A stretch of DNA of 39,625 nt from Gammaproteobacteria bacterium (GTDB lineage Bacteria; Pseudomonadota; Gammaproteobacteria; GCA-001735895), in NCBI GenBank assembly GCA_030066085.1, contig JASJCI010000031.1, positions 1 through 39,625 on the forward strand, in the 5' to 3' direction. Under the pieces are notes generated by a model that saw only the letters and a program-made list of their open reading frames with translations, searched no databases and was not told the DNA's origin. This document shows, piece by piece, positions 8,764-29,166 of the stretch. A program made the translations under genes and the position numbers. How positions within the stretch are numbered: the stretch's first letter is position 1; each line of letters opens with the position of its first letter.

Positions 8764-10227
8764 ATGAGTATCCAGCTTTCAGACCAGGGCCTGCTCAAAA
8801 CCCAGGCGTACATCAACGGCCAGTGGGTCGATGCCGACAGCGGCGAGACCGTACCCGTGAACAACCCGGCCACCGGCGAAATTATCGCCGAGGTGGCCAA
8901 GTGCAGCACCGCCGAAACCCGCCGCGCGATCGAGGCCGCCGAGGCAGCGTTCGTCGACTGGCGCCAACGCCCGGCCAAGGAACGCGCCAACCTGCTGCGC
9001 AAGTGGTTCAACCTGATGATGGAGGCGCAGGAAGACCTGGCGCTGATCATGACCCTCGAGCAGGGTAAGCCGCTGGCCGAATCGCGCGGTGAAATCGCCT
9101 ATGGCGCCAACTACATCGAGTGGTTCGCCGAGGAATCCAAGCGCATCTACGGCGACACCATCCCGGCGCCGTCGGGCGACAAGCGCATCGTCTGTATCAA
9201 ACAGCCGGTGGGCGTGGTGGCCTGCATCACGCCGTGGAACTTCCCCAACGCGATGCTGACGCGCAAGATCGCGCCGGCGCTCGCGGCGGGCTGCACCGTG
9301 GTGTGCAAGCCCGCCAACGCCACCCCGCTGTCGGCTTACGCCTTCACCGAGCTGGCCGAGCGCGCCGGCATCCCGCCCGGCGTCATCAACATGGTCACCG
9401 GCCAGACTTCGGCCATCGGTGAGGAACTGACGTCGAACCCGACCGTGCGCAAGCTGACCTTCACCGGCTCGACCCCGGTCGGCAAGCAACTGATGGCGGC
9501 CTGCGCGGCCACGGTCAAGCGCACGTCGATGGAACTCGGCGGTAACGCGCCGTTTATCGTGTTCGACGATGCCGATCTCGACGCCGCGGTGGCCGGTGCG
9601 CTGATCAGCAAGTACCGCAATGCCGGCCAGACCTGCGTCTGCGCCAACCGCATCCTGGTGCAGGAAGGCGTTTACGACGCCTTCGCCGCCAAGCTCGCCG
9701 ACGCGGTCGGCGGCCTCAAGATGGGTCCCGGCACCGAGGACGGCGTCACCGTCGGCCCGCTGATCAACGAGCAGGCGGCCAACGACATGGAAGCCTTCGT
9801 CGCGGACGCGGTTTCCAAGGGTGCGCAGAAAGTCGTCGGCGGCAATCGCTCCGATCTCGGCAGCCACTTCTTCGAGCCCACCGTGCTGACCAACGTCAGC
9901 GGTGAAATGCGCGTATTCCGCGAGGAAATCTTCGGCCCGATCGCGCCGCTGTTCAAGTTCAGCACCGAGGCAGAGGCGATCCAGATGGCCAACGACACCG
10001 AGTTCGGCCTCGCCTGTTATTTCTACGCGCGCGACCTGGGCCGCGTCTGGCGCGTGGCCGAAGGTCTCGAGTACGGCATCGTCGGCATCAACGAAGGCAT
10101 CATTTCCAACGAGATGGCGCCGTTCGGCGGGGTCAAGGAATCCGGCCAGGGGCGCGAAGGTTCCAAGTACGGCCTCGACGACTACGTCGAGATCAAGTAC
10201 ATGCTGATGGGAGGTATCGATCAATGA
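8764..10227 (+). CDS. gabD: Succinate-semialdehyde dehydrogenase, NAD(P)+
   Basis: Oxidises succinate semialdehyde to succinate, the last step of GABA degradation. The 487-residue aldehyde dehydrogenase has VVACITPWNFP with Asn159, cofactor Lys182, FTGSTPVGK (233-241), the general base Glu257 in MELGGNAPF, and the nucleophile Cys291 in NAGQTCVCANR. The second Cys two residues on is typical of redox-sensitive SSADH. Length is standard. The start at 8764 follows GGAAG at six bases. Its stop overlaps the gabT start (ATGA), so the pair is translationally coupled. The paired gabT supports the substrate, though glutarate semialdehyde is a possible alternative. Confidence 0.9.
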   Translation: MSIQLSDQGLLKTQAYINGQWVDADSGETVPVNNPATGEIIAEVAKCSTAETRRAIEAAEAAFVDWRQRPAKERANLLRKWFNLMMEAQEDLALIMTLEQGKPLAESRGEIAYGANYIEWFAEESKRIYGDTIPAPSGDKRIVCIKQPVGVVACITPWNFPNAMLTRKIAPALAAGCTVVCKPANATPLSAYAFTELAERAGIPPGVINMVTGQTSAIGEELTSNPTVRKLTFTGSTPVGKQLMAACAATVKRTSMELGGNAPFIVFDDADLDAAVAGALISKYRNAGQTCVCANRILVQEGVYDAFAAKLADAVGGLKMGPGTEDGVTVGPLINEQAANDMEAFVADAVSKGAQKVVGGNRSDLGSHFFEPTVLTNVSGEMRVFREEIFGPIAPLFKFSTEAEAIQMANDTEFGLACYFYARDLGRVWRVAEGLEYGIVGINEGIISNEMAPFGGVKESGQGREGSKYGLDDYVEIKYMLMGGIDQ

Positions 10228-11549
10228 GCGTTGCAGAACTGTCCAGCAGTCAAACCGAATCGCTGACCAACGCCGACTGGCAGGCGCGCAAGGAAGACGC
10301 GGTTGCGCGCGGCCAGGGCAACATCGCCCCGGTTTACATCGCGCGCGCGCAGGGCTCCGAACTGTGGGATGTCGAGGGTAAACGCTACATCGACTTCGGC
10401 ACCGGCATCGCGGTGGTCTCGGCCGGCCACTGTCACCCGAAAATCACCGCCGCGGTGACCGGGCAGGTGCAGAACTTCAGCCACACCTGCGTCATGGTCA
10501 CGCCCTACGACACGTCGGTACGACTCGCCGAGAAACTCAACGAGCTGGTCCCGGGCCCGTCGAAGAAAAAGTCGATCTTCGTCACCACCGGCGCCGAGGC
10601 GGTCGAAAACGCGGTCAAGATCGCGCGCGCCCATACCGGTCGCCGCGGCGTGGTTGCGTTCAACGGCGGTTTTCACGGCCGCACCATGCTGGCCATGGGG
10701 CTGACCGGCAAGGTTACGCCGTACAAGAACCTGTTCGGCCCGTTCCCGGCCGAGATTTACCACGTCCCGTTTCCGATCGAGTACCACGGCCTGAGCTGGC
10801 AGCATTCGATGCTGGCGCTCGAGGAAATGTTCAAGGTCGACCTCGCGCCATCGGACTGCGCCGCGATCGTGATCGAGCCGGTGCAGGGCGAAGGCGGTTT
10901 TTACCCGGCGCCGGTCGAGTTTCTGCAGGCCCTGCGCAAGCTGTGCGACGACCACGGCATCGTGCTGATCGTCGATGAGATCCAGAGCGGCTTCGCGCGC
11001 ACCGGCAAGTGGTTCTGCCACGAGCGCGCCGGCATCGAGGCCGACCTGGTCACGATCGCCAAGGGCGTCGCCAACGGCTACCCGATCGCCGCGGTGACCG
11101 GCAAGGCGGAGATCATGGACGCGCCGCTGCCCGGTGGACTCGGCGGCACCTATGCCGGTTCGCCGGTGGCCTGCGCCGCGGCGCTGGCGATGATCGAAGT
11201 TATCGAGGAAGAAAACCTGAACGCGGCCGCGCTCCACGTCGCCGAGGTCTTCTCCGCGCACCTGCAGGCGCTGCAGCAAAAGCACCCGCAAATCATCGGC
11301 CAGCTGCGCACCGATCACGGCGCGATGATGGCGATGGAGCTGGTCACCAACGGTGACGCCGCGCAGCCGAATCCGGAGCTGACCAGGGCGCTGGTCGGCA
11401 AGGCCTACGAGAACGGGCTCGCGCTGCTGTCCTGCGGCATGCGCGGCAACGTCATTCGCTTCCTGCCGGCACTCAATATCAGCGACGACCTGGTCAACGA
11501 GGGTTTCGATATTCTTGCCGGCTGTCTCGACGAGTTGGCTGCAGGCTAG
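10224..11549 (+). CDS. gabT: 4-Aminobutyrate aminotransferase
   Basis: Transfers the amino group of GABA to 2-oxoglutarate, giving succinate semialdehyde for GabD. It is a 441-residue class III aminotransferase: TTGAEAVENA (121-130) binds the PLP phosphate, Asp251 in IVDEIQSGFARTG contacts the pyridine nitrogen, Lys280 in TIAKGVANGYP forms the Schiff base, and GGTYAGSPVACAA follows. The start overlaps the gabD stop by four bases. 5-Aminovalerate or another omega-amine is possible as an additional substrate. With a PuuB-like oxidase and an AruI-like decarboxylase nearby, it could drain GABA from polyamine or arginine breakdown. Confidence 0.9.
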   Translation: MSVAELSSSQTESLTNADWQARKEDAVARGQGNIAPVYIARAQGSELWDVEGKRYIDFGTGIAVVSAGHCHPKITAAVTGQVQNFSHTCVMVTPYDTSVRLAEKLNELVPGPSKKKSIFVTTGAEAVENAVKIARAHTGRRGVVAFNGGFHGRTMLAMGLTGKVTPYKNLFGPFPAEIYHVPFPIEYHGLSWQHSMLALEEMFKVDLAPSDCAAIVIEPVQGEGGFYPAPVEFLQALRKLCDDHGIVLIVDEIQSGFARTGKWFCHERAGIEADLVTIAKGVANGYPIAAVTGKAEIMDAPLPGGLGGTYAGSPVACAAALAMIEVIEEENLNAAALHVAEVFSAHLQALQQKHPQIIGQLRTDHGAMMAMELVTNGDAAQPNPELTRALVGKAYENGLALLSCGMRGNVIRFLPALNISDDLVNEGFDILAGCLDELAAG

Positions 11550-11757: not shown

Positions 11758-14211
11758 ATGACCCCAGGGACAGACCTGCCGTCCGAGGCACGGATCGTCG
11801 TCATCGGCGGCGGCATCATCGGCTGCTCGACCGCTTACCACCTGGCGAAGCTGGGCTGCAGCGAAGTGGTCCTGCTGGAAAAACACAGGCTGACCTCGGG
11901 CTCGACCTTTCATGCCGCCGGGCTGGTCGGCCAGTTACGCACCAACGCCAACATCACCCAGCTGCTCGGGTACTCGGTGGAGCTGTACCAGAAGCTCGAG
12001 CAGGAGACCGGGCTCGCGACCGGCTGGAAGATGAATGGCGGACTGCGCCTCGCCTGCAGCCCGGATCGCTGGGTGGAAGTCAGGCGCCAGGCAACCACGG
12101 CACACTCCTTCGGTCTCGAAATGCATTTGCTGACCCCCGCGGAAGCGCGCGAGCTGTGGCCGATCATGGAAATCGACGACCTCGTGGGCGCGGCTTACCT
12201 GCCCACCGACGGCCAGGCCAACCCGTCGGATATCACCCAATCGCTCGCCAGCGGCGCCCGCCGGGATGGCGTAATGATCTGCGAGGAAGTCGAGGTCACC
12301 GGTTTCGAGTTCGACGGCGATAACATCCGCGCGGTAACAACCGACGCCGGGCGCATCAGCTGCGAACGCGTGGTGATCTGCGCCGGCCAGTGGTCGCAGG
12401 AACTCGGCAGGCTGGCCGGAATCAACGTGCCGCTGGTGTCGGTGCAGCACCAGTACCTGGTTACCGAGGCGATCGACGGCGTCGCGCCCGACCTGCCGAC
12501 GCTGCGCGACCCGGATCGCCTGACCTATTTCAAGGAAGATGTCGGCGGCCTGGTGATGGGCGGTTACGAACCCAACCCGATCCCGTGGGCCGAGGACGGA
12601 ATACCGGCGGGCTTCAACTTCACCCTGCTGGACAACAACTGGGATCACTTCGAGCCGCTGATGCAACAGGCGATCGCGCGCGTACCGGCACTGGCCGACG
12701 CCGGCGTGCGGCAGATGTACAACGGCCCGGAAAGCTTTACCCCGGACGGCAATTTTATTCTCGGCGAAGCGCCCGAGCGCAGCGGCGTGTTCGTCGGCGC
12801 CGGGTTCAACGCTTTCGGTATTGCATCGGGTGGCGGCGCCGGCATGGCGCTGGCGGAATGGGTCCATAATGGCGCCCCGCCCTTCGACCTGTGGCCGGTC
12901 GACATCCGGCGCTTCGGTCAACCGCACCGCGATATCGAGTGGGTGCGGCGGCGCACGCTGGAAGCCTATGGCCGGCATTACACGATGGCCTGGCCATTCG
13001 AGGAGAACCGCTCCTGCCGGCCCAGCCGCCGATCACCGTTGTACGAGACCCTGCGGGCACGCGGCGCCTGTTTCGGTGAAAAACTCGGCTGGGAACGGCC
13101 GAACTGGTTTGCCGAGGATCCCGCATCGGCGCGGGACGAATACGGTTTCGGCCGCCAGAACTGGTTCGACGCGGTCGGCCGCGAACACCGGGCGGCGCGC
13201 GAACGCGTCGTGCTGTTCGACCAGACGTCGTTCGCCAAGTATCGCGTCAGCGGACGCGACGCGGAGCGCGCGCTGTCGCGGATCTGCGCCAACCGGGTCC
13301 CGCGCGAAGACGGCGGCGCGGTCTACACCCAGATGCTCAACCCGCAAGGCGGTATCGAGTGCGACCTGACCGTAACCCGGATTGCGGCCGACGAATACTA
13401 CCTCGTAACCGGGACCGGTTTCGCCACCCACGACCTGGACTGGATCCGGCGCCAGCTGCCGCCGGATGGCGACGTTCGCGTCGACGACGTTACCCCGGCC
13501 TGGGCGGTGCTGTCGTTGATGGGGCCGAAATCGCGCGAGGTGCTGCAATCGCTGGTGCGCGACGACCTGTCCGACGACGCGTTCCCGTTCGCGCGCCTGC
13601 GCGAGCTCGCGGTCGCGGGCGCGACCCTGCGCGCGCTGCGCGTCAGCTATGTCGGCGAGCTGGGCTGGGAGCTGCACGTGCCGGTAGAATCGGCCCTGAC
13701 GATATACCAGGCGCTGATGGCTGCCGGGGCCGATCACGGCATCGCCGACGCGGGCTACCGCGCGATCGAATCCCTGCGCCTGGAAAAAGGCTACCGCGCC
13801 TGGGGCGCCGACATCGGGCCGGACCACACGCCGCTGGAAGCCGGGCTCGGCTGGGCGGTCGACCTCAAAAGCGGCAAGGATTTCATCGGCCGCGCAGCCA
13901 TCCTGCAACAGCTCGAACAACCGTTGACCAAGTCGCTGGCCTGCTTTACCCAGCCGGACCCCGAGGTCGTGTTGCTCGGTCGTGAAACCATCTACCGGGA
14001 CGGTGAACGCGTGGGCTGGCTGTCGAGCGCCGGCTGGGGCTACACGGTGGCTGCCAACATCGGCTTCGGCTACGTGCGCAATGCCGGCGGTGTCGACCGG
14101 GCGTATCTCGAGAGCGGTCGTTACGAACTCGAAGTGGCGGGTGAACGCGTCGCCTGCGAATGGCACCCGGGACCGCTATACGATCCCGCGATGCGCAAAA
14201 TGAAATGCTGA
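11758..14211 (+). CDS. Dimethylglycine/sarcosine dehydrogenase-like flavoprotein with GcvT domain
   Basis: An 817-residue enzyme with DMGDH/SARDH architecture: a DAO-type FAD domain (about 12-370), a short central FAO_M-type region, and a GcvT folate-binding domain (about 435-810). VIGGGIIGCSTAYHLAKLG (15-33) is the dinucleotide motif. His52 in SGSTFHAAGL corresponds to the His that carries covalent FAD in DMGDH. Relatives demethylate dimethylglycine or sarcosine and trap the formaldehyde unit on tetrahydrofolate. Length equals mature DMGDH. Creatinase in the same window would supply sarcosine. Dimethylglycine, sarcosine and related N-methyl amino acids cannot be told apart by sequence. GGAG precedes the start. 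Confidence 0.85.
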   Translation: MTPGTDLPSEARIVVIGGGIIGCSTAYHLAKLGCSEVVLLEKHRLTSGSTFHAAGLVGQLRTNANITQLLGYSVELYQKLEQETGLATGWKMNGGLRLACSPDRWVEVRRQATTAHSFGLEMHLLTPAEARELWPIMEIDDLVGAAYLPTDGQANPSDITQSLASGARRDGVMICEEVEVTGFEFDGDNIRAVTTDAGRISCERVVICAGQWSQELGRLAGINVPLVSVQHQYLVTEAIDGVAPDLPTLRDPDRLTYFKEDVGGLVMGGYEPNPIPWAEDGIPAGFNFTLLDNNWDHFEPLMQQAIARVPALADAGVRQMYNGPESFTPDGNFILGEAPERSGVFVGAGFNAFGIASGGGAGMALAEWVHNGAPPFDLWPVDIRRFGQPHRDIEWVRRRTLEAYGRHYTMAWPFEENRSCRPSRRSPLYETLRARGACFGEKLGWERPNWFAEDPASARDEYGFGRQNWFDAVGREHRAARERVVLFDQTSFAKYRVSGRDAERALSRICANRVPREDGGAVYTQMLNPQGGIECDLTVTRIAADEYYLVTGTGFATHDLDWIRRQLPPDGDVRVDDVTPAWAVLSLMGPKSREVLQSLVRDDLSDDAFPFARLRELAVAGATLRALRVSYVGELGWELHVPVESALTIYQALMAAGADHGIADAGYRAIESLRLEKGYRAWGADIGPDHTPLEAGLGWAVDLKSGKDFIGRAAILQQLEQPLTKSLACFTQPDPEVVLLGRETIYRDGERVGWLSSAGWGYTVAANIGFGYVRNAGGVDRAYLESGRYELEVAGERVACEWHPGPLYDPAMRKMKC

Positions 14212-14270: not shown

Positions 14271-15899
14271 TCAGCTCGCGTGGACGACCTGTTCGTCCGC
14301 GACTAGCCAGGGATCGTTTTCGTTGACGATGACCAGGCTGGGCCCCGGGTGCTCCAGCGCGGCGGCCAGGCGCGCGCGGAATTCTGCGGCATTACCAACC
14401 ACCGCGCCCGGACAACCGAAGGCCTCGGCGAGCGCGACGAAATCGGGGGCGCGCGGATTGACGCCGATCTCGCCAATGCCGCGCTTGACCATGCCGTCAC
14501 GAATCATGGCGAAGCTGTGGTTGTGCCAGACGATGACCGGGATCGACAGCTGTTCTTCGACCGCGGTCATCAGTTCGTTGACGGTGAACATCAGGCCACC
14601 GTCGCCGGCGAGCGCCACGACCGCGCGTTCTGGCACGGCGAGCTTGGCGCCGACCGCGCCCGGCATGGCACATCCGAGCGTACCGAAACCGGCCGGGTAG
14701 AACCAGCAGCGCGGATGCTCCATCGGCATGAACTCGGTACCGGTATAAACCAGCATGGCAATGTCGCCCATGATGATCGCGTCTTCGGGCAGGCACTCCC
14801 GCAACAACAATAGCAGCATGACGTGCTGTTGCTGCAACGGCGTATAGGTGTTCACCTGCTCGGTCCTGACAGCCTCGACCTCGGCAGCCGCATTGCGATT
14901 GCGTGCGCGGTAGTCGCGGCGGCGCAGTTCCTGCAGCAGGTCACGACAGGCGCCTCCCGCATCGCCGAGGACCGGGACGCTTGCCGGAAAAGCGTCGTCG
15001 AAACGGTCGGGATCGATGTCGATCCGGACCACCTTCCCATTCACCGGCAGGTCGTAGATGAAGCTGTCCGCTTCGCCGAGCTCGGTGCCGATCGCGAGCA
15101 CGACGTCGGCACGCGACAGGTAGGCCTGCACCGGTGGCGAAATCACGCCGCCGGTCAACGACAGCGGGCTGGAATCGGGCACGACACCCTTGCCGGCGTT
15201 GGATGATACGACCGCCGCGTCGAGCAGCTCGGCCAGCTCGGTTACCACCGGCCCGGCATCCTGCGCGCCGCCACCGACGACCATCAGCGGACGTTCGGCG
15301 TGCTCGATCAGATCCGCGGCGGCGGCGATCGAAGCGGCATCGGCGTGGCTTCGAGGCGGCGGCGTTACCGCCTGCCAGGTAGCGTCGACCGTTACATCGA
15401 GCAGGTCGATCGGAATCGCGATATGAACCGGGCGCGGCCGGCCGGACTTGAACACGGCCCATGCGCGCGCCAGCAGCGCCGGCAGCTCGGCGGGATCGGT
15501 CACCATTACGCTGAACGCGGTGATCGGCGCGGTAATGGCGCACAGGTCGCGGGTCTCGTGCAGGCGTCCCCAGCCCTTGCCGAGCGAGGGCGTATCGTTG
15601 GCGCTGGATATCACCAGCATCGGCACCGAATCGGCGTAGGCCTGGCCGATGCCGGTGGCGGCATTGGTGACACCGGGCCCGGTAATCAGCATGCAGACGC
15701 CCGGCTCGCCGGTTACCCGCGCGTAACCGTCGGCCATGAAGCTGGCGCCCTGCTCGTTGCGTGGCGTGATCGCGCGCAGGCCGCCGCGTTCGATACCGCG
15801 GTAGAGCTCCAGCGTGTGCTCGCCGGGAATGCCGAACACGGTCGACACGCCGTAGGCCCGCAGTAACTCGACCAGCGCCTCGCCACAGGTTTTAGCCAT
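14271..15899 (-). CDS. Thiamine-diphosphate decarboxylase, possibly 5-guanidino-2-oxopentanoate decarboxylase (AruI-like)
   Basis: A 542-residue ThDP enzyme of the acetolactate synthase/benzoylformate decarboxylase superfamily. The catalytic Glu is Glu49 in RNEQGASFMADGYAR; the middle domain is about 190-325; the Mg/ThDP motif begins at GDGGLMFTVNEL and ends in WHNHS. The N-terminal KTCGEALVELLRAYGV and FGIPGEHTLELYRG resemble proteins annotated as 5-guanidino-2-oxopentanoate decarboxylase (AruI, about 559 residues), which acts in the arginine transaminase route to 4-guanidinobutyrate and then GABA. GabDT nearby fits. No AruH transaminase is in the window, so another 2-oxo acid is possible. 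It is convergent with the DMGDH-like gene. Confidence 0.7.
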   Translation of the reverse strand: MAKTCGEALVELLRAYGVSTVFGIPGEHTLELYRGIERGGLRAITPRNEQGASFMADGYARVTGEPGVCMLITGPGVTNAATGIGQAYADSVPMLVISSANDTPSLGKGWGRLHETRDLCAITAPITAFSVMVTDPAELPALLARAWAVFKSGRPRPVHIAIPIDLLDVTVDATWQAVTPPPRSHADAASIAAAADLIEHAERPLMVVGGGAQDAGPVVTELAELLDAAVVSSNAGKGVVPDSSPLSLTGGVISPPVQAYLSRADVVLAIGTELGEADSFIYDLPVNGKVVRIDIDPDRFDDAFPASVPVLGDAGGACRDLLQELRRRDYRARNRNAAAEVEAVRTEQVNTYTPLQQQHVMLLLLLRECLPEDAIIMGDIAMLVYTGTEFMPMEHPRCWFYPAGFGTLGCAMPGAVGAKLAVPERAVVALAGDGGLMFTVNELMTAVEEQLSIPVIVWHNHSFAMIRDGMVKRGIGEIGVNPRAPDFVALAEAFGCPGAVVGNAAEFRARLAAALEHPGPSLVIVNENDPWLVADEQVVHAS

Positions 15900-16650: not shown

Positions 16651-17775
16651 CTATTCTGTCAATTCGGTACGGACCGAGTCCGCGATCATTTCCTGGAATC
16701 GGCGCACGCTGTTTTCCCAGTGCGGCGACAACACGCCGCCGTCTGCCGCCAACGGCGACTGCCTGCCCTGCTGCATGCGCCGGCACATCGCGTGATCCTC
16801 GAGATGCACGTCGTGCCACAGGGTCTCGAGCCCGCGGATCTGTTCGGCACTGTAGGCGGAATCGCGATGGGTGTAAATGACCCGCGTCTGGCGCGTACGG
16901 TCGGGCGCCAGCGGCTCGTGCAGGTACACGCCCATCTGGTCGGGCTGATACGTTCCCATGATGAACATCGGAAACAGCGTCAGGTAGTGCGAGGTCACCC
17001 CGAGGGCGCCCGCCTTCGCCTTGGCCACCTGTTCCTCGCTGAGTTCGACCGCGCTGCCGACGCAGTGCTCGTCGATCACGGTGCGATGATCCTCCAGTGG
17101 CTGCTCGGTCGTTTTTTGATGCACGAACTGCACGTGGTAAGGCTCGATGAAGTTTTCCATCAACAGCTTCCAGTTGCATTCGACTTCACCGAACTCGAGC
17201 CTCGCCACCGGCACGTAATCATGCACGTCGACATCGCCGAGCTGACGCCGGATCGGTGCGAGGAAGTCCTCGAACGGCAGCGGTGCATCCGCGAGATTGA
17301 CGAACACCCAGTCGTGCCAGGTTTCGCAGCTCACTGGCAACAAGCCGTAATCGGCGTAGTCGAATCCCTCGGGCAGGTCGCGCAGGCCGCCGCCGAAATA
17401 AGGCGCGTTTTTGAGCGCGCCGCAGAGATCGTAGCTCCAGCTGTGATAGGGACAGCGAATCAGTTTGCCGCAATTGCCGGGAGCGTCGACCAGGGCCAGG
17501 TTGCGATGGCGACAGATATTGTGGAACGCGGCGATCCTGCCGCTCTCGTCACGCACCAGGAACAGCGGCAGGCCGGCGACCCGGATCGGTTGCACGTCAC
17601 CCGGCTTCGCCAGCTGGTGCGCGTAAGCGACGAACACCCAGTTGTCGCGAAACAGGCTGGCCTGCTCGATGCGCAGGAACTCGGCGCTGATATAGGCCTC
17701 GCCCGGCAGCCCGTGCGCGACCGGCGACTCGGCATCAAAGGCATCCAGCAGGTTTCGGCTCGGCATCTTGGTCAC
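16651..17775 (-). CDS. Rieske non-heme iron oxygenase, large subunit (betaine-demethylase-like)
   Basis: A 374-residue terminal oxygenase. The Rieske cluster ligands are Cys88-X-His90 and Cys108-X2-His111 (ICRHRN and CPYHSW). The mononuclear iron ligands are His214, His219 and probably Asp327 (LEDHAM), with bridging Glu211 in ENFIEPYHVQFVH. This layout is shared with GbcA, choline monooxygenase and stachydrine demethylases, which act on quaternary amines, so a betaine substrate is inferred. No ferredoxin reductase (GbcB type) is nearby and one must come from elsewhere. It is divergent from an Lrp-type regulator and followed closely by gloA. Aromatic substrates cannot be excluded. Confidence 0.85.
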   Translation of the reverse strand: MTKMPSRNLLDAFDAESPVAHGLPGEAYISAEFLRIEQASLFRDNWVFVAYAHQLAKPGDVQPIRVAGLPLFLVRDESGRIAAFHNICRHRNLALVDAPGNCGKLIRCPYHSWSYDLCGALKNAPYFGGGLRDLPEGFDYADYGLLPVSCETWHDWVFVNLADAPLPFEDFLAPIRRQLGDVDVHDYVPVARLEFGEVECNWKLLMENFIEPYHVQFVHQKTTEQPLEDHRTVIDEHCVGSAVELSEEQVAKAKAGALGVTSHYLTLFPMFIMGTYQPDQMGVYLHEPLAPDRTRQTRVIYTHRDSAYSAEQIRGLETLWHDVHLEDHAMCRRMQQGRQSPLAADGGVLSPHWENSVRRFQEMIADSVRTELTE

Positions 17776-17919: not shown

Positions 17920-18429
17920 ATGACCGATCCGGCCGTCCCGCTCGAAACCGGCAAAGCCCGCGGCATCGCCTCCGCCGATGATCACCTGAATCGCGAGATT
18001 ATCCGCATGCTGCAGCAGGACGGTCGCCTGCCGTACAAGGACATCGCGCTCGAACTCAAGGTCTCGGAAGGCACGATCCGCAACCGCATCCAGTCGATGA
18101 AACAGAGCGGCGCGCTCAAGATCGTCGCGCTCGCCGACCCGATGGCGATCCGCTACAAGGCCGACGCGATGATCGGCATCAAGGTCGCGACCCCGGCCAC
18201 GCCGCGCGACGTCGCCACCCGCCTCGCCGGGCTCGGCGAAGTCGTCTACGTGCTGTGGGTGTCGGGCCGCTATGACCTGTTGATCGAAGTCGTCTGCGAA
18301 ACCAGCGGCGCTTTCCAGCAATTTCTCGAAACGCACTGCTTCGGCCACGACGATATCGATTCGATTGAGGTCATGAGCGGCATCGAAATGTTCAAGAACC
18401 AGTTCCTGCTGAAAAGGCAGGCGCAATAA
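17920..18429 (+). CDS. Lrp/AsnC-family transcriptional regulator
   Basis: A 169-residue regulator with an N-terminal winged HTH (about 22-70: LNREIIRMLQQDGRLPYKDI, then VSEGTIRNRIQSMKQSG) and a C-terminal RAM ligand-binding domain (about 80-160, with VSGRYDLLIEVVCE). About 20 residues precede the usual start, which is slightly long. Lrp-type proteins form octamers and sense amino acids or related metabolites. It sits 30 bases before the glnT-like gene, presumably in one transcript, and diverges from the Rieske gene; both are likely targets. Confidence 0.88.
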   Translation: MTDPAVPLETGKARGIASADDHLNREIIRMLQQDGRLPYKDIALELKVSEGTIRNRIQSMKQSGALKIVALADPMAIRYKADAMIGIKVATPATPRDVATRLAGLGEVVYVLWVSGRYDLLIEVVCETSGAFQQFLETHCFGHDDIDSIEVMSGIEMFKNQFLLKRQAQ

Positions 18430-18459: not shown

Positions 18460-19872
18460 ATGAGCAACACCTATTACGAAAAAATGGAGCAGTCGTTCCC
18501 GAGCAAGGCGCGCATCCGCAAGGAGCAGAAAAAGCTCGAAGCGGCCGGCGTGAAATACATATTGTCGTGCTGGATCGACATGCTCGGCGTGCCCAAGACC
18601 AAGCCGGTGCCGCTGTGCGACTTCGAGCCGCTGTGTCTCGGCAAGGGTCCGCAGTTCGCGGTGCACTCCGTTTCCTTCGTACCCGAACTCGGTCCGGCCG
18701 ACTCTGACCAGATCCCGGTACCCGATCTCGACACGCTGGTGATCTGCCCCTGGGATCCGACCTGCGCCTGGGTATTCGCCGACCTGTGGTGGGAAGGCAG
18801 ACCCTACAACATGTGCCCGCGCCAGGCGCTCAAGCGCCAGATCCGCGATGCCGGCAAGAAAGGTTACGCGATGATGGCCGGCGTCGAGCCCGAATTCATC
18901 ACCATGCAGTGGGACGAGAACGGCCAGCCGGTCAAGGCTTACGACGACGACCCGGTCGAGGGCGTGCGCCCGCGGCGGCAGGCTTTCGGCTACGACGTCG
19001 AGTACTCGATCGACGCGATGGGTTTTCTCGGCGAACTGATCGACATCCTCAACGGCCTCGGCTGGGGACTGCACGACGTGGTCGCCGAGGGCGCCTACTC
19101 GCAGTTCGAACTCGACTTTCACTACACCGACGTGCTGACCATGGCCGACCGGCTCGTGTTCCTGCGCGTATTGCTGAAAGAGGTCGCCAAGAAGCACGGC
19201 ATGTTCGTAACCTTCATGCCCAAGCCGACCACCGGTGACTGGCGCTCCGGCGCACACATGAACACGTCGATCGTCAAGGTCAGGCAACCGGGCAAGAACA
19301 TTTACGAAGGCGCGCGCGGCAAGTTCAGCCAGACCGCCTACCACGCGGTCGGCGGCCTGCTCAAGCACGGTGCCGCGATCACCGCGGTGGCCTGCAGCAC
19401 GGTCAACTCCTACAACGGCCTGGTTCCGAAGGTTGCCGGTTTCGAGGGTGGCGTCTACACCTGGGCGCCGACGCACATTACCTACGGCCACAACAACCGC
19501 TCGGCGATGCTGCGCATGCCGCAGAACCGGTTCTGCATCGAGAACCGCGCCGCCGACATGTGCATGAACCCGTATCTCGGTCTCGGCATGTCGCTGGCGG
19601 CCTCGGTCGACGGCATCGTCAACAAGATCGATCCCGGCCCGTCGGCGGACGAAGATCTTTACGTCATGGACAGCAAACGCCAGAAGAAGCTGACCGCGCT
19701 GCCGCGCAACCTGCTCGAGGCCACCGAACAGCTCGGCAAGAGCGCGCTGGCGAAGGAAGTGCTGGGTGAGCAGATGCTGTCTTCGTTCATCGCCTACAAG
19801 GTCGACGAGTGGGAGCGCTACCACCAGACCACCACCGACTGGGAGCTGCAAGAATACCTGCGGTTGTATTGA
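18460..19872 (+). CDS. Glutamine synthetase-family ligase, GlnT / gamma-glutamylmethylamide synthetase-like
   Basis: A 470-residue ATP-dependent gamma-glutamyl ligase of the GS fold. Visible active-site motifs are GVEPEF (Glu143, Glu145), AEGAYSQFELDF (Glu210, Glu217), SGAHMNTS (His266), NNRSAMLR (Arg347) and ENRAADMCMNPYL (Glu361, Arg363). GlnT/GMAS relatives join glutamate to methylamine, ethylamine or ammonia. The segment NSYNGLVP (316-323) has Asn-Gly where glutamine synthetases have NSYKRLVP, removing an Arg thought to hold the glutamate carboxylate, so the substrate may differ. GAGGAG gives a strong ribosome site. It is cotranscribed with the Lrp gene. A gamma-glutamylpolyamine synthetase (PuuA-like) role is an alternative. 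Confidence 0.8.
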   Translation: MSNTYYEKMEQSFPSKARIRKEQKKLEAAGVKYILSCWIDMLGVPKTKPVPLCDFEPLCLGKGPQFAVHSVSFVPELGPADSDQIPVPDLDTLVICPWDPTCAWVFADLWWEGRPYNMCPRQALKRQIRDAGKKGYAMMAGVEPEFITMQWDENGQPVKAYDDDPVEGVRPRRQAFGYDVEYSIDAMGFLGELIDILNGLGWGLHDVVAEGAYSQFELDFHYTDVLTMADRLVFLRVLLKEVAKKHGMFVTFMPKPTTGDWRSGAHMNTSIVKVRQPGKNIYEGARGKFSQTAYHAVGGLLKHGAAITAVACSTVNSYNGLVPKVAGFEGGVYTWAPTHITYGHNNRSAMLRMPQNRFCIENRAADMCMNPYLGLGMSLAASVDGIVNKIDPGPSADEDLYVMDSKRQKKLTALPRNLLEATEQLGKSALAKEVLGEQMLSSFIAYKVDEWERYHQTTTDWELQEYLRLY

Positions 19873-19884
19873 TTGTTCGCTCTT

Positions 19885-19970
19885 GTCACCCCGCGGTTCA
19901 ACCGCGGGGTCCAGGGCAGCAGGTTCGAGATGTCCATCCTGGATACCGCGGCTAAACCGCGGTATGACAA
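19885..19970. repeat. REP/BIME-type double hairpin, copy B
   Basis: Hairpin one: CCCCGCGG (19889-19896), loop of five, CCGCGGGG (19902-19909). Hairpin two: ATACCGCGG (19943-19951), loop of five, CCGCGGTAT (19957-19965). Outer flanks GTCA and TGACA and inner flanks GTCCA and TGGAT are inverted, so the halves are mirror copies. The stems differ from copy A by compensating bases (TCCCG with CGGGA, versus TACCG with CGGTA), which shows selection for pairing. It fills the 120-base gap after the glnT-like gene. Confidence 0.8.
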
Positions 19971-19992
19971 ACCAAAAATATCGAGCGTAGAA

Positions 19993-20997
19993 ATGGATCA
20001 CGAAATCTTCCGCCTCCGGGACTTCGAGCTGCAATCCGGCGTTACCCTGCCCGATGCGCAGCTCGCGTACAGAACCTACGGCGAGCTGAACGCCGCCGGC
20101 GACAATGTTGTCGTGTTGCCGACCTTCTACACCGGCAATCACATGCGCAACGAGGGCTTCTTCGGGCCCGGCCGCGCAATCGATCCGGCGCGACACTTCA
20201 TCGTCTCGGTCAACCTGTTCGGTAACGGCATATCGTCGTCGCCAAGCAATACGCCGCCACCGTTCGACGCCGCAGGTTTTCCCGACATTACCTTTTACGA
20301 CAACGTGCGCGCGCAGCACGCGCTGCTCACCGAGGGCCTCGGCGTTCGGCGCATCGCGCTGGTGACCGGCTGGTCGATGGCCGGCTGCCAGAGTTTCCAG
20401 TGGGGCGCGCAGTACCCGGACATGGTCGATGCGATCCTGCCGTTCTGCGGCTCGGCGAAGACCTCGGAACACAACATCGTTTTCCTCGAGGGCGTCAAGG
20501 CCGCGCTGACCGCCGACGGCACTTACGATGGCGGCAATTACAGTGAACCCCCGACCCGCGGCCTGAAGGCTTTCGGCCGCGTGTACGCAGGCTGGGCCTT
20601 TTCGCAGACCTTCTACCGCGAGCAAATGTATAAACTCAAAGGCTTCGATACCGCCGAAGGCCTGCTGCAGGACTGGGAACAGGATCACCTCGACTGGGAC
20701 GCCAACGACCTGCTGTGCAAGCTGTGGACCTGGCAGCGCGGCGATATCAGTGCGCAACCGGCTTACGGCGGCGACTTCGTCGCCGCGCTGAACGCAATCC
20801 GTGCCAGGACTATCGTCATCGCCTGCAACAACGACCTCTACTTTCAGCCGGCCGACAACGCACTCGAGGTGCCGCATATCGCCAATGCCGAACTGCGGGT
20901 GTACGAGTCGCCCTGGGGTCACTGCGTCGCATCGCCGGGCAACGACCCGGCATTCGAAACATTCCTCGATTCGGCGATTCGCGAACTGCTGGCCTGA
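19993..20997 (+). CDS. Alpha/beta hydrolase of the homoserine acetyltransferase (MetX) fold
   Basis: A 334-residue protein of the MetX-like alpha/beta hydrolase family with a full triad: Ser128 in TGWSMAGCQ, Asp281 in ACNNDLYF and His310 in WGHCVASPG. Genuine MetX proteins have GGSMGG at the nucleophile; here it is GWSMAG, and the region around the substrate pocket also differs, so I do not call homoserine transacetylase. The ATG at 19993 was chosen because the longer frame (from 19873) would run through the REP hairpins. The gene follows the glnT-like gene; hydrolysis or acyl transfer on a product of that gene is a guess. Confidence 0.75.
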   Translation: MDHEIFRLRDFELQSGVTLPDAQLAYRTYGELNAAGDNVVVLPTFYTGNHMRNEGFFGPGRAIDPARHFIVSVNLFGNGISSSPSNTPPPFDAAGFPDITFYDNVRAQHALLTEGLGVRRIALVTGWSMAGCQSFQWGAQYPDMVDAILPFCGSAKTSEHNIVFLEGVKAALTADGTYDGGNYSEPPTRGLKAFGRVYAGWAFSQTFYREQMYKLKGFDTAEGLLQDWEQDHLDWDANDLLCKLWTWQRGDISAQPAYGGDFVAALNAIRARTIVIACNNDLYFQPADNALEVPHIANAELRVYESPWGHCVASPGNDPAFETFLDSAIRELLA

Positions 20998-25086: not shown

Positions 25087-25090
25087 TTGC
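25066..25090. promoter_or_regulatory. Fur box over the bfd promoter
   Basis: GCAAATGAGAAT (25066-25077) is a perfect half-site; the opposing arm (25079-25090) matches 10 of 12. A further inverted half-site ATTCTCATTT follows at 25091-25100, making a perfect 10-base inverted repeat with 25068-25077, so more than one Fur dimer could bind. Confidence 0.85.
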
Positions 25091-25140
25091 ATTCTCATTT
25101 AGAGCTGGAATTCTCGATCCCCCTGCTCGACAATAGGTGG

Positions 25141-25476
25141 ATGAATTTCGGCATCACCAAGACTATCCCGGCCGCGGCCGGCATCGAAACGCTCGACTCG
25201 CTCTACGACGGCAGCATCGACGAGTACGAATTTCACATGGCCGGCGTCGAGCCCAAGCGCCTCAAGGTCGGCGACTGGGTCTACACGATTTTCAACCACC
25301 AGCTACATGGCCGCCTGCGGATCAAGCGCTTCGTGACCGGCGCAACCAACCCGTCGTCCGGCAAACCGCGCATCCTGATTTACGTCGAGGCGCCGGGCGT
25401 GCGTCTCGCGACCCCGGTACCGAAGCGCGGGCACCAGGGCACGCGTTACACCGACGGCGAAGACTGGCCGGCCTGA
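25141..25476 (+). CDS. Conserved-looking small soluble protein of unknown function
   Basis: A 111-residue protein that I cannot assign. It has no signal peptide or membrane segment. The middle (VGDWVYTIFNHQLHGRLRIK, then RILIYVEAPGVRL) reads as alternating beta strands and hints at a small beta-barrel of PUA/ASCH kind, but that is only an impression. The start is uncertain: the ATG at 25141 has AGGTGG directly adjacent, closer than usual. A TTG at 25087 would place the start inside the Fur region. It is divergent from bfd, so Fur bound there might also affect it. It is convergent with an Lrp gene. Confidence 0.6.
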   Translation: MNFGITKTIPAAAGIETLDSLYDGSIDEYEFHMAGVEPKRLKVGDWVYTIFNHQLHGRLRIKRFVTGATNPSSGKPRILIYVEAPGVRLATPVPKRGHQGTRYTDGEDWPA

Positions 25477-25492: not shown

Positions 25493-25957
25493 TCAGTTTG
25501 CCGGCAGCGGTATGCCCGGACGCTCGCGCCCCTCGTAGACGATCGAGGTTTCGAAACGCGCGATCAGCTCGCGACCGGTGAAATGCTCGTAGGCGAGATC
25601 ACGCAGGTGATCCATGTCGCGCGCGATGACGTTGACCACGAGATCGTAGTGGCCGGTGATCAGGTAAGCCGACTGCACTTCGTCGACCGCGAGCAGTTCG
25701 TCCAGCAGGGCATCGATGGTGGGCTGCTCGTGACGCGAAATCCCGATCATGAACAGCGCGGCGATACCGAAACCGAGACGCCCGGCATCGATATTGATAC
25801 GCGACCCGGTAATCGCACCGGATGACCAGAGTCGCCGCACCCGTTCGTGACAGGTCGACTGCGCCAGGCCCACGGCGGCGGCAAGCTGCTTGTTGGATAA
25901 CCGCGCATCGTTCTGTAAAAGCCGCAAAAGTTCGAAATCTGTTCGGTCCAGTTCCAT
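25493..25957 (-). CDS. Lrp/AsnC-family transcriptional regulator
   Basis: A 154-residue regulator of standard Lrp length. The winged HTH covers about residues 3-50 (LDRTDFELLRLLQNDARLSN and VGLAQSTCHERVRRLWSSG), and the RAM domain about 65-145, including the ligand-pocket GHYDLVVNVIARD. It is divergent from the phyH / binding protein / oxidase series over an 88-base AT-rich gap with dyad symmetry, so it most likely autoregulates and controls that series. The ligand is unknown. Confidence 0.9.
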   Translation of the reverse strand: MELDRTDFELLRLLQNDARLSNKQLAAAVGLAQSTCHERVRRLWSSGAITGSRINIDAGRLGFGIAALFMIGISRHEQPTIDALLDELLAVDEVQSAYLITGHYDLVVNVIARDMDHLRDLAYEHFTGRELIARFETSIVYEGRERPGIPLPAN

Positions 25958-25987
25958 TTAACTGCCTAATAGCCGTAAATTATTCGT

Positions 25988-26017
25988 TTGATATGTCAGT
26001 TAATTGTTAATTATACT
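25988..26017 (+). promoter_or_regulatory. Promoter and dyad-symmetric operator of phyH
   Basis: TTGATA (25988-25993), 18 bases, TATACT (26012-26017), ahead of the ATG at 26046. Within it TCAGTTAATT (25996-26005) faces AATTATACTGA (26009-26019), an imperfect palindrome. GTCAGTT (25995-26001) also pairs with AACTGAC (26030-26036). AT-rich dyads at a divergent lrp gene are typical Lrp-family binding sites. Confidence 0.55.
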
Positions 26018-26045
26018 GATTTTTTGCATAACTGACGAATCTGAG

Positions 26046-26912
26046 ATGATGCTGCACGAGATAACCACGGCCGATCGCGAGCATTTTGCCGAGGACGGCT
26101 ACCTGGTCGTCGACGACCTGATCGATCCGGCACACATCCCGGTGCTGCACCAGGCCTTCGATGACCTGTTCCACGGTCGTTTCGAAACCGGCGTGCGCCC
26201 CGACGAGGTCAACTGGCAGGTGGCGGACGGCGACCCGAGCCGTACACGCCAGATCTGCAACGGCTGGAAAGCCAACCGTGAAATTGCGCGAGTGGTACTC
26301 GACGAAGGCATCGGCCGCGCCATCGCCGAGTTGGCGGGCTGGCCCGGCGCGCGCATCATGATCGACAACGTGCTGTGGAAACCGCCTGCAACCAAATCGC
26401 TCGGATTCCACCAGGACAGCGCCTACCTGTCGTGGTTTACACCCTCCGACCTGTGCACCTGCTGGATCGCGCTCGACGCCACCCGCGCCGACGGCGGCAC
26501 GATCGAGTTTGTCCCCGGTTCGCATCGCTGGGCGCACAGTGAGCCGGAGGGCGAGTTCCACGCGCCCGAAGACTACCGCGCACCGATGCGCGATGCGGCC
26601 GCACGCGAAGGCACTGAACCCGGTATCACCTATGTCGAGGTTCCTGCCGGTGGCGGCTCTTTCCACCACGGCTGGACCTGGCACGGCTCGGGCGAAAACC
26701 TGAGCCCGAACCCGCGCCGCGCGCTGGTGCTGCACGCGATGCGCAGCGACGTCGAATACGACCCGGCGCAATTCGCGCAGGGCATCGGCCCGATCTATAG
26801 CCGTTACAAGCGGCTCGGCGACAACCGGCTCGACGAAAACTACTTCCCGGTCCTGTGGCGCAAGGACGGTTATCGCACCCCGCAGATCACGGACTATCTC
26901 GACGGTCGCTGA
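26046..26912 (+). CDS. Phytanoyl-CoA dioxygenase (PhyH) family Fe(II)/2-oxoglutarate oxygenase
   Basis: A 288-residue hydroxylase of the PhyH superfamily. The iron ligands are His122 and Asp124 (GFHQDSAYL) and His213 (TWHGSGEN); Arg224 or Arg225 in NPRRAL would bind 2-oxoglutarate. Family members include phytanoyl-CoA and ectoine hydroxylases and many small-molecule enzymes; the substrate here is unknown. Two adjacent ATGs (26046, 26049) are possible starts. It opens a same-strand series with a leaderless binding-fold protein (three-base gap) and a flavin oxidase, under likely control of the divergent Lrp. A hydroxylated amine or amino acid passed to the oxidase would fit, but that is inference. 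Confidence 0.85.
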   Translation: MMLHEITTADREHFAEDGYLVVDDLIDPAHIPVLHQAFDDLFHGRFETGVRPDEVNWQVADGDPSRTRQICNGWKANREIARVVLDEGIGRAIAELAGWPGARIMIDNVLWKPPATKSLGFHQDSAYLSWFTPSDLCTCWIALDATRADGGTIEFVPGSHRWAHSEPEGEFHAPEDYRAPMRDAAAREGTEPGITYVEVPAGGGSFHHGWTWHGSGENLSPNPRRALVLHAMRSDVEYDPAQFAQGIGPIYSRYKRLGDNRLDENYFPVLWRKDGYRTPQITDYLDGR

Positions 26913-26915
26913 ATC

Positions 26916-27644
26916 GTGTCGACCCCCACCGTCGAAGCCGGTCGGCTGACGCTGATCTGTGCCGACCTGGACGCGAGGCCGCTGTTCTGGACCGACGCCG
27001 ACGGTGAGCGCCACGGTTACGAACCAGCGGTGGCCAGCGCGGTAGCGGCCGAACTCGGGCTGGCACTGCGGTGGAAATTCCTGCGCTGGTCCGACTTTGT
27101 CCCCTGCCTGCAGGCGGGCGACGCCGACGCGATCTGGTGTGGTGCCGCAATCACGCCGGCACGCGAACGCGAGATGCTGTTTAGCCGGCCTTACGCGGTG
27201 TTCGACGAATCGGTGCTGGTGCGCGCCAGTGACCCGATCACGCAACCGGAAGACCTGCGCGGTCGGCGAGTCGGCGCGATCGCCGGCAGTACCAACATGG
27301 TGCTGGCCGAAACCTGGCCCGGTTGTGAACGCATCGGCTTCGACGGCACCTCGGACGACGTTTTCGCCGAGATGATCGCGGCGCTGCGCAACGGTGATAT
27401 CGATCCCGTGGTCGACGACGAACCGGCTTTCGGCGGACTGCTGGCGGATCCCGAACTGCGCCTCGCGTTTACCGTCGCAACCGGTAACCGCTGGGGCGCG
27501 GCCCTGCGACTCGACAATACGCGACTGAAGCGGGCGCTGGACAGCGCGCTGCAGACCCTGCACGCAAACGGAAGCCTGCGCGACAGCTGGCAGCAATGGC
27601 TGCCCGCAATCGACTGGCCCGGGACATCGATGCACCCGGGCTGA
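26916..27644 (+). CDS. Solute-binding protein family 3 fold, without signal peptide
   Basis: A 242-residue protein with the periplasmic amino-acid-binding (SBP_bac_3) fold: LTLICADLDARPLFW and GYEPAVASAVAAELGL at the start, WCGAAITPARE and FSRPYAVFDESVLV at the first hinge, LRGRRVGAIAGST opening lobe two, then MIAALRNGDIDPVVDDEPA. Normal members begin with a signal peptide; here the fold starts within about ten residues of the GTG at 26916, three bases after the phyH stop, leaving no room for a leader. It should therefore be cytoplasmic. No permease or ATPase is nearby. It could be a ligand carrier, sensor or enzyme partner of PhyH. Confidence 0.82.
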   Translation: MSTPTVEAGRLTLICADLDARPLFWTDADGERHGYEPAVASAVAAELGLALRWKFLRWSDFVPCLQAGDADAIWCGAAITPAREREMLFSRPYAVFDESVLVRASDPITQPEDLRGRRVGAIAGSTNMVLAETWPGCERIGFDGTSDDVFAEMIAALRNGDIDPVVDDEPAFGGLLADPELRLAFTVATGNRWGAALRLDNTRLKRALDSALQTLHANGSLRDSWQQWLPAIDWPGTSMHPG

Positions 27645-27756
27645 TGGCCCGGCGAAAAATCCACCCTCGGCGTCGCCTGCGTCTTGGTCATCGATAGCCG
27701 CTTTGCGCTAGACTAGCCCGACAAAAACACGAGGTACCGCCCGCGAGGTGGAAATC

Positions 27757-29166
27757 ATGACCGATACCACGGGCCAGGCGCTGCAAGCGCTGGCCGGCAC
27801 GCGCTACACGACCTTCTGGCTGGACAGCCTCGAACCCGTCGCGGACCAGGCGCCGCTGCGCGAGCACGGTTTTTGCGACCTGCTGGTGGTTGGCGGCGGA
27901 TTCTGCGGCCTGTGGGCCGCGATCCAGGCCAAGGAACAGGATCCGGCGCGCGACGTTGCGCTGATCGAGGCGAAGAGCGTCGCCAACGGTGCCAGCGGCC
28001 GCCCGGCGGCGATCATGTCGACCTCGGTCATGCACGGCATCGACAACACCGAGCGCCTGTTTCCGGACGACGTCGTCGAACTCGAACGTCTCGGCCAGCA
28101 AAACATGGACGAGTTTCGTGCGGCGATCGATCGTTACCGGATCGACTGTGACGTCGAGTGGGGCGGCGAGATGAAGGTCGGGATCGGCGAGGAGGGTATT
28201 CCGACCGTCGACGAAGATCACGCGCTCTACCTCAAGTACGGGCACGACGCGGTGCGCCTCGACCGCCAGGCCATGCAGGCCGAGGTCAACTCGCCGCTGT
28301 TTTTCGGCGGTACCTGGTCACGCCAGCGCAGCGGCACGGTGCATCCCGGCAAGCTGGTGCGCGAACTCAAACGGGTTGCGCTCGAACTCGGCGTGCGCGT
28401 GTTCGAAAACACGCCGATGCTGCGTAACCGCAAACAGGCCGGCGGCATCGTCGTCGAAACTCCGCTGGCCAACATCACCGCGCGGCGCGTGCTGCTCGCC
28501 ACCAACGCCTGGGCCACCGGTCACCCGCATATCAGCCGCCGCGTGGCCGCGATTCGCGACCGTATCCTGGTTACCGAGCCGCTGACGCCGGACCAGCGGC
28601 AAAAAATCGGCTGGCACAACCGCCAGGGGATCTACGATACGCGCACCCAGCTGAATTACATGCGCCTGACACCCGATGACCGCATCCTGTTCGGCGGCAG
28701 GCTGGGATATTTCTTCGGCAATAACACGGATCCCGCGCAGGACAGGACAGCGGAGCCCTATATTCGCCTGGTGCAGTCGTTTTATCGCACTTTTCCGCAG
28801 CTGGCGGACGAGATCCGCTTTTCGCATGCCTGGAGCGGCCCGATCGGACTGACCACGCGCATGGCGGTGCACTACCAGAAGTACCATGACGGCGACATGG
28901 TGTTCGCCGGCGGCTACTCCGGCTTCGGCGTGACCGCGTCGCGCTTCGGTGCGCGCATCGGGCTCGCGATCCTCGACCGGCAGGATATCCCCGAGACGCG
29001 CATGCAGTTCGCGCAAACCCTGCCCAACTATATTCCGCCCGAACCTTTCCGCTGGATCGGCGCACAGGTGACCATGTACGCGCTCGATACGGTCGACGAA
29101 AAGGGTGGCTGGCGCAAACCCTGGATCGCGATGGTGCAGAAAATGGGTTTTCCCATTACGCTCTGA
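27757..29166 (+). CDS. FAD-dependent amine oxidoreductase, gamma-glutamylputrescine oxidase (PuuB)-like
   Basis: A 469-residue DAO-family flavoprotein. LLVVGGGFCGLWAA (42-55) is the FAD-binding motif; SVANGASGRPAAIM (75-88) lies next to the flavin; GGYSGFGVTASRFGARIG near the C-terminus closes the FAD site. An N-terminal extension of about 40 residues with TTFWLDS is typical of PuuB-like and related proteins. These oxidise secondary amines such as gamma-glutamylputrescine to an aldehyde. The ATG at 27757 was preferred over GTG 27748 because GAGG (27745-27748) sits eight bases upstream. It is on the same strand as phyH and the binding protein, after a 112-base gap, so it may have its own promoter. 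Confidence 0.82.
   Translation: MTDTTGQALQALAGTRYTTFWLDSLEPVADQAPLREHGFCDLLVVGGGFCGLWAAIQAKEQDPARDVALIEAKSVANGASGRPAAIMSTSVMHGIDNTERLFPDDVVELERLGQQNMDEFRAAIDRYRIDCDVEWGGEMKVGIGEEGIPTVDEDHALYLKYGHDAVRLDRQAMQAEVNSPLFFGGTWSRQRSGTVHPGKLVRELKRVALELGVRVFENTPMLRNRKQAGGIVVETPLANITARRVLLATNAWATGHPHISRRVAAIRDRILVTEPLTPDQRQKIGWHNRQGIYDTRTQLNYMRLTPDDRILFGGRLGYFFGNNTDPAQDRTAEPYIRLVQSFYRTFPQLADEIRFSHAWSGPIGLTTRMAVHYQKYHDGDMVFAGGYSGFGVTASRFGARIGLAILDRQDIPETRMQFAQTLPNYIPPEPFRWIGAQVTMYALDTVDEKGGWRKPWIAMVQKMGFPITL

Follow-up and report, generated by a model that had tools for sequence, protein, structure and literature searches.

The window analysed here, which means the whole 39,625-nt stretch of the gammaproteobacterial contig JASJCI010000031.1, encodes a leaderless family-3 solute-binding-fold protein (SBP) between two oxidative enzymes. 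The SBP gene (26916-27644, + strand) has a GTG start, and its product matches SBP_bac_3 (PF00497) with 89.5 bits against a cut-off of 26.4. It is preceded by a gene for a PhyH-family Fe(II)/2-oxoglutarate oxygenase (26046-26912, +) and followed by a gene for a DAO-family FAD oxidase (27757-29166, +). An AsnC/Lrp-type regulator (25493-25957, -) is divergent from PhyH. All four proteins passed their Pfam cut-offs, with 61.3 bits for the AsnC-type HTH (PF13404), 53.5 for AsnC_trans_reg (PF01037), 96.9 for PhyH and 171.6 for DAO; the regulator was also recognized by NCBIfam. The likely start of PhyH is the ATG at 26046, the listed frame opening with TTG at 26004. The DAO frame is listed as 27748-29166, and the ATG at 27757, which follows a GAGG, looks like the true start. 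An initial annotation, made from the sequence alone, had located the four genes correctly and had placed PhyH and the SBP gene 3 bases apart, which is the distance measured from the PhyH stop codon to the SBP GTG.

The same annotation described the SBP as a protein without an export signal or a transporter beside it, and both statements were borne out. The first strand of the fold begins at model residue 10 of a 243-codon open frame, and there is no N-terminal extension. The maximum 12-residue hydropathy near the N terminus is 1.05, whereas E. coli ArgT, HisJ and GlnH, taken with signal peptides, reach 2.23 to 2.47. Between the DUF1489-like gene (25087-25476, +; 25.5 bits, cut-off 25) and the YpsA-like gene, neither the list of open reading frames nor the Pfam scan of chosen frames showed an ABC permease or ATPase gene. 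The binding proteins that serve ABC importers are, as a rule, exported. A role of the SBP as a transporter component was rejected because no gene for a permease or an ATPase was seen beside it.

The recurrence of the genes was studied in 31 genomes of the genus, including that of the window, with PhyH counted at an E value of 1e-40 or better and DAO at 1e-100. PhyH occurs in 17 of the 31 genomes, and the other 16 copies are 71 to 80% identical to that of the window. DAO directly follows PhyH in 13 of these 17, although in two of the 13 pairs the contig end cuts DAO and only the junction is visible. A DUF1489-like gene precedes PhyH in 14 of the 17 and overlaps the PhyH start by 4 bases in loci L075, L076, L077 and L079. 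The four exceptions to adjacency are genomes G010, G011, G016 and G012, the last having DAO on a different contig. A partial second PhyH-DAO pair in G022 (contig C94), in which the contig end cuts PhyH about 300 bases before DAO, was excluded from the counts. The adjacency makes it quite probable that PhyH and DAO form a functional pair.

The trio itself is not conserved. The initial annotation had presented PhyH, SBP and DAO as a module and had proposed a search for its recurrence; when that search was made, the intact trio was found in only 1 of the 17 PhyH-bearing genomes, with a remnant in one more, and the trio was rejected as a conserved module. The remnant, in G001, consists of an N-terminal stretch joined to residues ~161 to 205, after which the frame is lost. 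No SBP was found in the gaps of the other 11 pairs, which measure 24 to 311 bases; the 292-base gap of L081 is an overestimate, as the DAO match there begins at residue 75. A 25-residue SBP-like match in L078 (E value 0.23) was not counted as a remnant, and there was no nucleotide support for remnants in the gaps of relatives other than G001. No SBP trace was found in G005, the nearest relative of G001 in the PhyH and DAO trees. When 57 genomes, including the 30 others of the genus, were searched with the SBP, the next best match after the window and the G001 remnant reached 53.5 bits at 31% identity.

The facing regulator, likewise proposed as a module member, fared no better: it occurs in 1 of the 31 genomes, and no match at 1e-25 was obtained in the 30 others. 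Since the SBP and the facing AsnC are each absent from nearly all relatives in the genus, they are accessory, and the conserved unit is the DUF1489-like gene, PhyH and DAO. The AsnC-PhyH intergenic region (25958-26045) is AT-rich and a candidate regulator site. It holds two of the four promoter-like sites of a 4.6-kb region (1.1 expected), one per strand, all of them consensus matches only, and also imperfect inverted repeats. The facing AsnC, a local addition, probably controls itself and PhyH.

The conserved neighbourhood extends well upstream of the genes first described. The order common to the relatives is GabT, Rieske, AsnC, GS-like, MetX-like, cupin, FbpA (facing the opposite way), DUF1489-like, PhyH and DAO. 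In the window, this includes a gene for a glutamine-synthetase-like (GS-like) ligase (18460-19872, +), a candidate gamma-glutamyl-amine ligase found by family search. Domain scans further identified a second AsnC regulator beside it (17920-18429, +), which is conserved there, a Rieske oxygenase alpha subunit adjoining the AsnC/GS pair (16651-17775, -), and a MetX-like alpha/beta hydrolase following the GS-like gene (19873-20997, +). The window also encodes a GabT/PuuE-type GABA transaminase (10224-11549, +; TIGR00700, 530.5 bits, cut-off 506.65), 48.6% identical to PuuE, and a GabD-type succinate-semialdehyde dehydrogenase (8695-10227, +; TIGR01780, 706.2 bits, cut-off 646.35). The initial annotation was silent on the GS-like ligase, the second AsnC, the Rieske oxygenase, GabT and GabD; the gene cluster that it reported is real, but its reading was too narrow.

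The GS-like gene is present upstream in the window and 8 relatives, which is 9 of the 13 genus stretches reaching at least 5 kb upstream of PhyH, and 9 of the 11 such stretches that have the DUF1489-like gene. All 8 GS-bearing relatives have AsnC, MetX-like and FbpA genes, 7 have Rieske and 6 cupin; GabT was found in 3, some stretches stopping short of its expected place. No cupin match was obtained in the window itself. What the initial annotation claimed as a neighbourhood stands for the adjacent PhyH-DAO pair and fails for the SBP and the facing AsnC, which are not kept. Its suggestion of a catabolic pathway, which we would narrow to amines, is reasonable, given that the conserved neighbourhood also contains a GS-like ligase and that the window encodes GabT and GabD. 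PhyH and DAO are likely to be the distal end of a neighbourhood for amine catabolism.

The closest described system is the Puu pathway of E. coli K-12 (PuuA to PuuE), whose steps were checked against two published accounts (PMC9397018; PMC8437039). In common with it, the window combines a GS-like ligase, a DAO-family FAD oxidase, a GABA transaminase and a succinate-semialdehyde dehydrogenase in one region. The resemblance at the protein level is distant, at only 26 to 29% identity. The GS-like protein is 25.8% identical to PuuA and scores 184 bits against the 650-bit cut-off of NF045547 and 371.6 against the 469.6 of TIGR03105. DAO shares 28.8% identity with E. coli PuuB over 430 amino acids (E value 1.8e-38). 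Beyond the Puu set, the window has two oxygenases (PhyH and Rieske) and the leaderless binding protein.

Residues H122-x-D124, H213 and R224 of PhyH are invariant in 18 aligned sequences, that of the window included; from human PHYH, we take them to be the metal and 2-oxoglutarate ligands. The enzyme shares the family and the metal-site pattern with EctD, but was ruled out as an ectoine hydroxylase, as it falls far below the cut-off (34.6 against 336.5 bits). PhyH is scarce beyond the genus: among 369 genomes sampled across the class, matches at 1e-40 were confined to the window, G010 and G248, and no plasmid match was obtained at 1e-30. None of the papers listed by the literature search bore on PhyH with amine clusters. 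DAO was ruled out as an L-pipecolate oxidase and as an aminophosphonate oxidoreductase, being below the respective cut-offs, and gave no match to solved structures at 1e-8. Relatives of DAO are found in 44 plasmid records at 1e-40. Six of these loci (51 to 66% identity) were opened, of which one had no annotation and five were readable. An Ensifer locus has a polyamine ABC transporter gene, Pannonibacter and Caballeronia loci have agmatinase and aldehyde dehydrogenase genes, and a Thioclava locus has an aldehyde dehydrogenase gene. A Paracoccus locus has no polyamine transporter, agmatinase, aldehyde dehydrogenase or cupin annotated. Cupin genes occur in three of the five annotated loci.

The SBP has close relatives outside the genus, and these are linked to GS-like genes. 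The nearest are 44 to 49% identical. A scan of genome contigs with two short peptide patterns, which is not exhaustive, yielded five loci plus a sixth at 29% identity (L058) that was not counted. Relatives were found in 5 of 201 genomes of one family, in 1 of 397 further genomes sampled from the phylum, and in two Rhodococcus plasmid records; of the 197 plasmid records that matched, 60 were listed, and the others among these 60 were at most 34% identical. These searches overlap, and seven distinct genomes were examined: Aidingimonas halophila, A. lacisalsi, Litchfieldella qijiaojingensis, Chromohalobacter nigrandesensis, G785, Rhodococcus koreensis and R. opacus. Scoring of two genomes set the SBP family well apart, at 176.8 and 233.3 bits against 59.8 for the next best match.

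A GS-like gene lies directly upstream of the SBP gene in all seven of these genomes, five halomonads and two Rhodococcus. The scored test, on seven loci from six genomes, gave 7 of 7, compared with a GS-like open reading frame in 0 of 30 other SBP_bac_3 loci with flanks of comparable size (2.6 to 3.7 kb). The seven genomes amount in effect to two lineages, and 28 of the 30 controls came from the 57-genome search and only two from the genomes of the SBP relatives. A second Rhodococcus plasmid match (H2) was excluded from the counts. By their sequences, the enzymes that the SBP relatives adjoin resemble glutamate-amine ligases. The new observation is that the leaderless SBP belongs to a small family linked to GS-like genes, of which the window protein, judged from its sequence, is an optional cytosolic member. 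This family is apparently undescribed; a full-text search, which mostly does not reach subscription journals, listed no paper on a leaderless binding protein with GS-like genes. The idea in the initial annotation of a cytoplasmic binding protein serving catabolism is thus supported by the linkage in other genomes.

The clusters outside the genus resemble the window in the leaderless SBP, the GS-like gene, an aldehyde dehydrogenase and amidotransferase-type genes. All four halomonad loci compared carry P450 and amidotransferase genes, and three of them (not G785) also carry genes for ferredoxin reductase, a permease and a PuuC-like dehydrogenase; in Litchfieldella, the aldehyde dehydrogenase shares 54% identity with PuuC. 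None of these four loci gave a PhyH or DAO match. In R. opacus, the locus encodes a member of the gamma-glutamyl-GABA hydrolase family together with aldehyde dehydrogenases, an aminotransferase, a ferredoxin and an FAD oxidoreductase, and no P450 is annotated in that stretch. The halomonad clusters thus have a P450 oxygenase where the window has PhyH, and in the halomonads and Rhodococcus the SBP adjoins GS, whereas in the window it adjoins PhyH and DAO. The halomonad clusters L054, L055, L056 and L131, with P450, amidotransferases, a GS-like ligase and the leaderless SBP, look like a separate uncharacterised amine-degradation cluster.

The pocket was compared in an alignment of seven SBP family members, including that of the window, with E. 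coli ArgT, HisJ and GlnH. No hydrophobic N-terminal stretch was present in any of the seven; where the open frame of a member was longer, its start was chosen by hand, and the longer N termini of L053, L056, L057 and L131 were not signal-like by eye. The positions of ArgT D11, R77 and D161 are Asp, Arg and Asp in 7 of 7 members (D17, R83 and D168 in the window). Other pocket positions are altered: in ArgT numbering, every member has Cys at 69, Trp at 52 and Ala at 14, with Ala or Gly at 72, so that Y14 is changed to A, S69 to C, and S72 to A or G. The SBP thus shares the fold and the Asp/Arg/Asp anchor positions with ArgT, HisJ and GlnH, but differs in lacking a signal peptide and an adjacent ABC permease or ATPase gene and in its altered pocket. 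Mutants of LAO at D11, S69, S72 and R77 are among the PDB fold matches, which fits a role of these positions in ligand binding.

The AlphaFold model of the SBP, built with five sequences, has a pLDDT of 80.4 and a pTM of 0.74. The 50 fold matches listed are amino-acid- or opine-binding proteins and their ancestral or engineered relatives; they include binding proteins for arginine, tryptophan, glutamine, glutamate and opines, as well as ancestral members of the cyclohexadienyl dehydratase line. Because the Asp/Arg/Asp anchors are kept and the fold matches amino-acid and opine binders, an alpha-amino-acid head on the ligand is likely, and binding of such a ligand in the cytosol is somewhat favoured. 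A gamma-glutamyl-amine is proposed as the ligand because such a conjugate bears an alpha-amino-acid head. This proposal is tentative and, taken alone, rather doubtful; glutamate, glutamine or arginine may be bound instead.

The explanation that we favour, with a probability of about 0.45 as a whole, is a conserved amine-catabolic neighbourhood with an optional cytosolic binding protein. The GS-like ligase would couple glutamate to an amine, and the PuuB-like FAD oxidase together with one or more oxygenases (PhyH, Rieske) would oxidise the amine or its conjugate. GabT and then GabD would drain the product through GABA to succinate. The SBP would be an optional cytosolic accessory outside any transporter, closing on an alpha-amino-acid head, most plausibly that of a gamma-glutamyl conjugate or of glutamate or glutamine, and would buffer, present or sense the bound compound. 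The facing AsnC would regulate itself and PhyH. The chances of a route through gamma-glutamylation are about even. A broader proposal is more speculative and would be correct in perhaps a minority of outcomes: the SBP family may have been relocated to the cytosol, where it would act as a metabolite chaperone of gamma-glutamylated amines or as a sensor of them, travelling with GS-like ligases, accompanying oxygenases (P450 in the halomonads, PhyH in the window) and gripping the free glutamyl head during oxidation of the amine end. If true, a leaderless SBP family beside glutamate-amine-type ligases, here between two oxidases, would clearly exemplify the use of this fold inside the cell in catabolism. 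The analysis also provides a concrete ligand hypothesis for the SBP, namely gamma-glutamyl-amines, and draws attention to the uncharacterised PhyH-DAO pair in amine breakdown.

Several observations weigh against this explanation. The GS-like protein and DAO fall under every NCBIfam cut-off listed, which for DAO includes those of TIGR03329 and AmaA. The gamma-glutamylation scheme is weakened because no PuuC-type dehydrogenase and no clear PuuD-type hydrolase were found among the window proteins scanned, in which the window differs from the Puu region. The sole aldehyde dehydrogenase found in the window is the one of succinate-semialdehyde type, above the TIGR01780 cut-off and 35% identical to PuuC. 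The whole genome holds seven Peptidase_C26 matches above the cut-off of 20.5; these are partial and low-scoring (at best 34.7 bits, or 34.9 with one frame joined), and they say little, as the family was matched in 14 of 14 control genomes. G004, G012, G010 and G016 have no GS-like gene upstream, the last two having no DUF1489-like gene either, and in the window the SBP lies ~7 kb from the GS-like gene. Twelve of the 13 PhyH-DAO pairs have no SBP or a broken one, so that it is dispensable for the pair. DAO occurs in 22 of the 31 genomes, and 8 of the 22 show no PhyH at 1e-40 (some of these genomes being incomplete), which lowers the odds that PhyH and DAO are a functional pair. In addition, on contig C17 of the source genome (G000), at ~116 to 138 kb, a ureohydrolase adjoins a GS paralogue and another GS lies ~20 kb off; this is a second candidate polyamine locus, and the polyamine work may happen there.

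The alternative that survives best, possible though improbable, is a route through the free amine. DAO would be an oxidase of agmatine or a similar guanidino-amine, giving 4-guanidinobutanal, then 4-guanidinobutyrate, GABA and succinate; the GS-like ligase would serve elsewhere, and the SBP would bind an ordinary amino acid, such as arginine. The plasmid relatives of DAO lie beside agmatinase-annotated ureohydrolases and aldehyde dehydrogenases with no annotated GS, in a gene table that is incomplete, and an agmatine oxidase fits these loci equally well. The window encodes, in addition to GabT and GabD, a 5-guanidino-2-oxopentanoate decarboxylase (14271-15899, -; NF005712, 610 bits, cut-off 500), whose product we take to be the same aldehyde, 4-guanidinobutanal. 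The genome has five Arginase-family matches, and the PhyH relative L051 is divergent from a dimethylargininase-like gene (75.2 bits, below the cut-off of 300). However, none of the five ureohydrolase matches is on the contig of the window, a counterpart of the decarboxylase was found in the stretch of only one relative (G004), and the conserved neighbour is the GS-like gene.

The SBP might instead be an allosteric or stabilising partner of GS-like ligases that senses glutamate or glutamine, which we consider unlikely. The halomonad loci have a 4-base overlap between the GS and SBP genes, and in Rhodococcus the SBP gene follows GS within ~80 bases, as would suit such a partner, but the window SBP sits with PhyH and DAO, away from GS. 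The window GS also falls into another subgroup, with 29% identity to the halomonad GS, compared with 42% between the halomonad and Rhodococcus enzymes. Of similarly low probability is that AsnC and the SBP landed here by chance and have no role for PhyH and DAO. This would agree with the presence of intact SBP and AsnC genes in one genome of the genus each and with the broken remnant in G001; it agrees less well with an intact SBP frame that keeps the ArgT anchors, runs in the same direction as PhyH and DAO 3 bases past PhyH, and belongs to a family tied to GS-like genes in other genomes. Least probable is that the SBP-fold protein is a cytosolic enzyme on the pattern of cyclohexadienyl dehydratase, which evolved from amino-acid-binding proteins and belongs to the same fold family (compared by sequence and fold matches only, both distant): the sequence and fold matches include ancestral proteins of that line (5t0w, 5jos), W58, C75, N127, D147 and D148 are family-invariant, and the ArgT pocket positions Y14, S69 and S72 are altered, but the binding anchors are kept in 7 of 7 members, the matches listed are mostly binding proteins, and no catalytic set was identified.

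Some further observations concern the PhyH family and the PhyH-DAO gap. The source genome has ten PhyH-family matches, all above the family cut-off. In G010 and G011 (L088, L090), PhyH forms a subclade of 71 to 72% identity without DAO alongside and is followed by a class-I glutamine amidotransferase and a Cys/Met-type PLP enzyme, plus an isochorismatase-like gene; the amidotransferase of the L050 copy exceeds the NF005743 cut-off. In G248, of another family (L051/L091), the PhyH that is divergent from the dimethylargininase-like gene matches at 63% identity and has a 4-base overlap with a gene that looks photolyase-related by eye. In L078 and L082, the PhyH-DAO gap contains a small open frame of ~77 amino acids whose CxxC pairs look zinc-ribbon-like by eye, and traces of similar DNA are present in L084 and L087.

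Elsewhere in the window, the protein encoded at 2783-4318 (+) exceeds the NCBIfam cut-off for the DMSP lyase DddP (633.8 bits against 600). An MTTB-family methyltransferase (5239-6969, -) lies beside a GbdR-like AraC regulator (6788-7873, +) that scores 217.5 bits, below the cut-off of 480; by its predicted gene content, the region from 5239 to 7873 suggests betaine or methylamine use. A DAO and GCV_T fusion of the dimethylglycine/sarcosine dehydrogenase type is encoded at 11758-14211 (+) and has the 5-guanidino-2-oxopentanoate decarboxylase as its neighbour.

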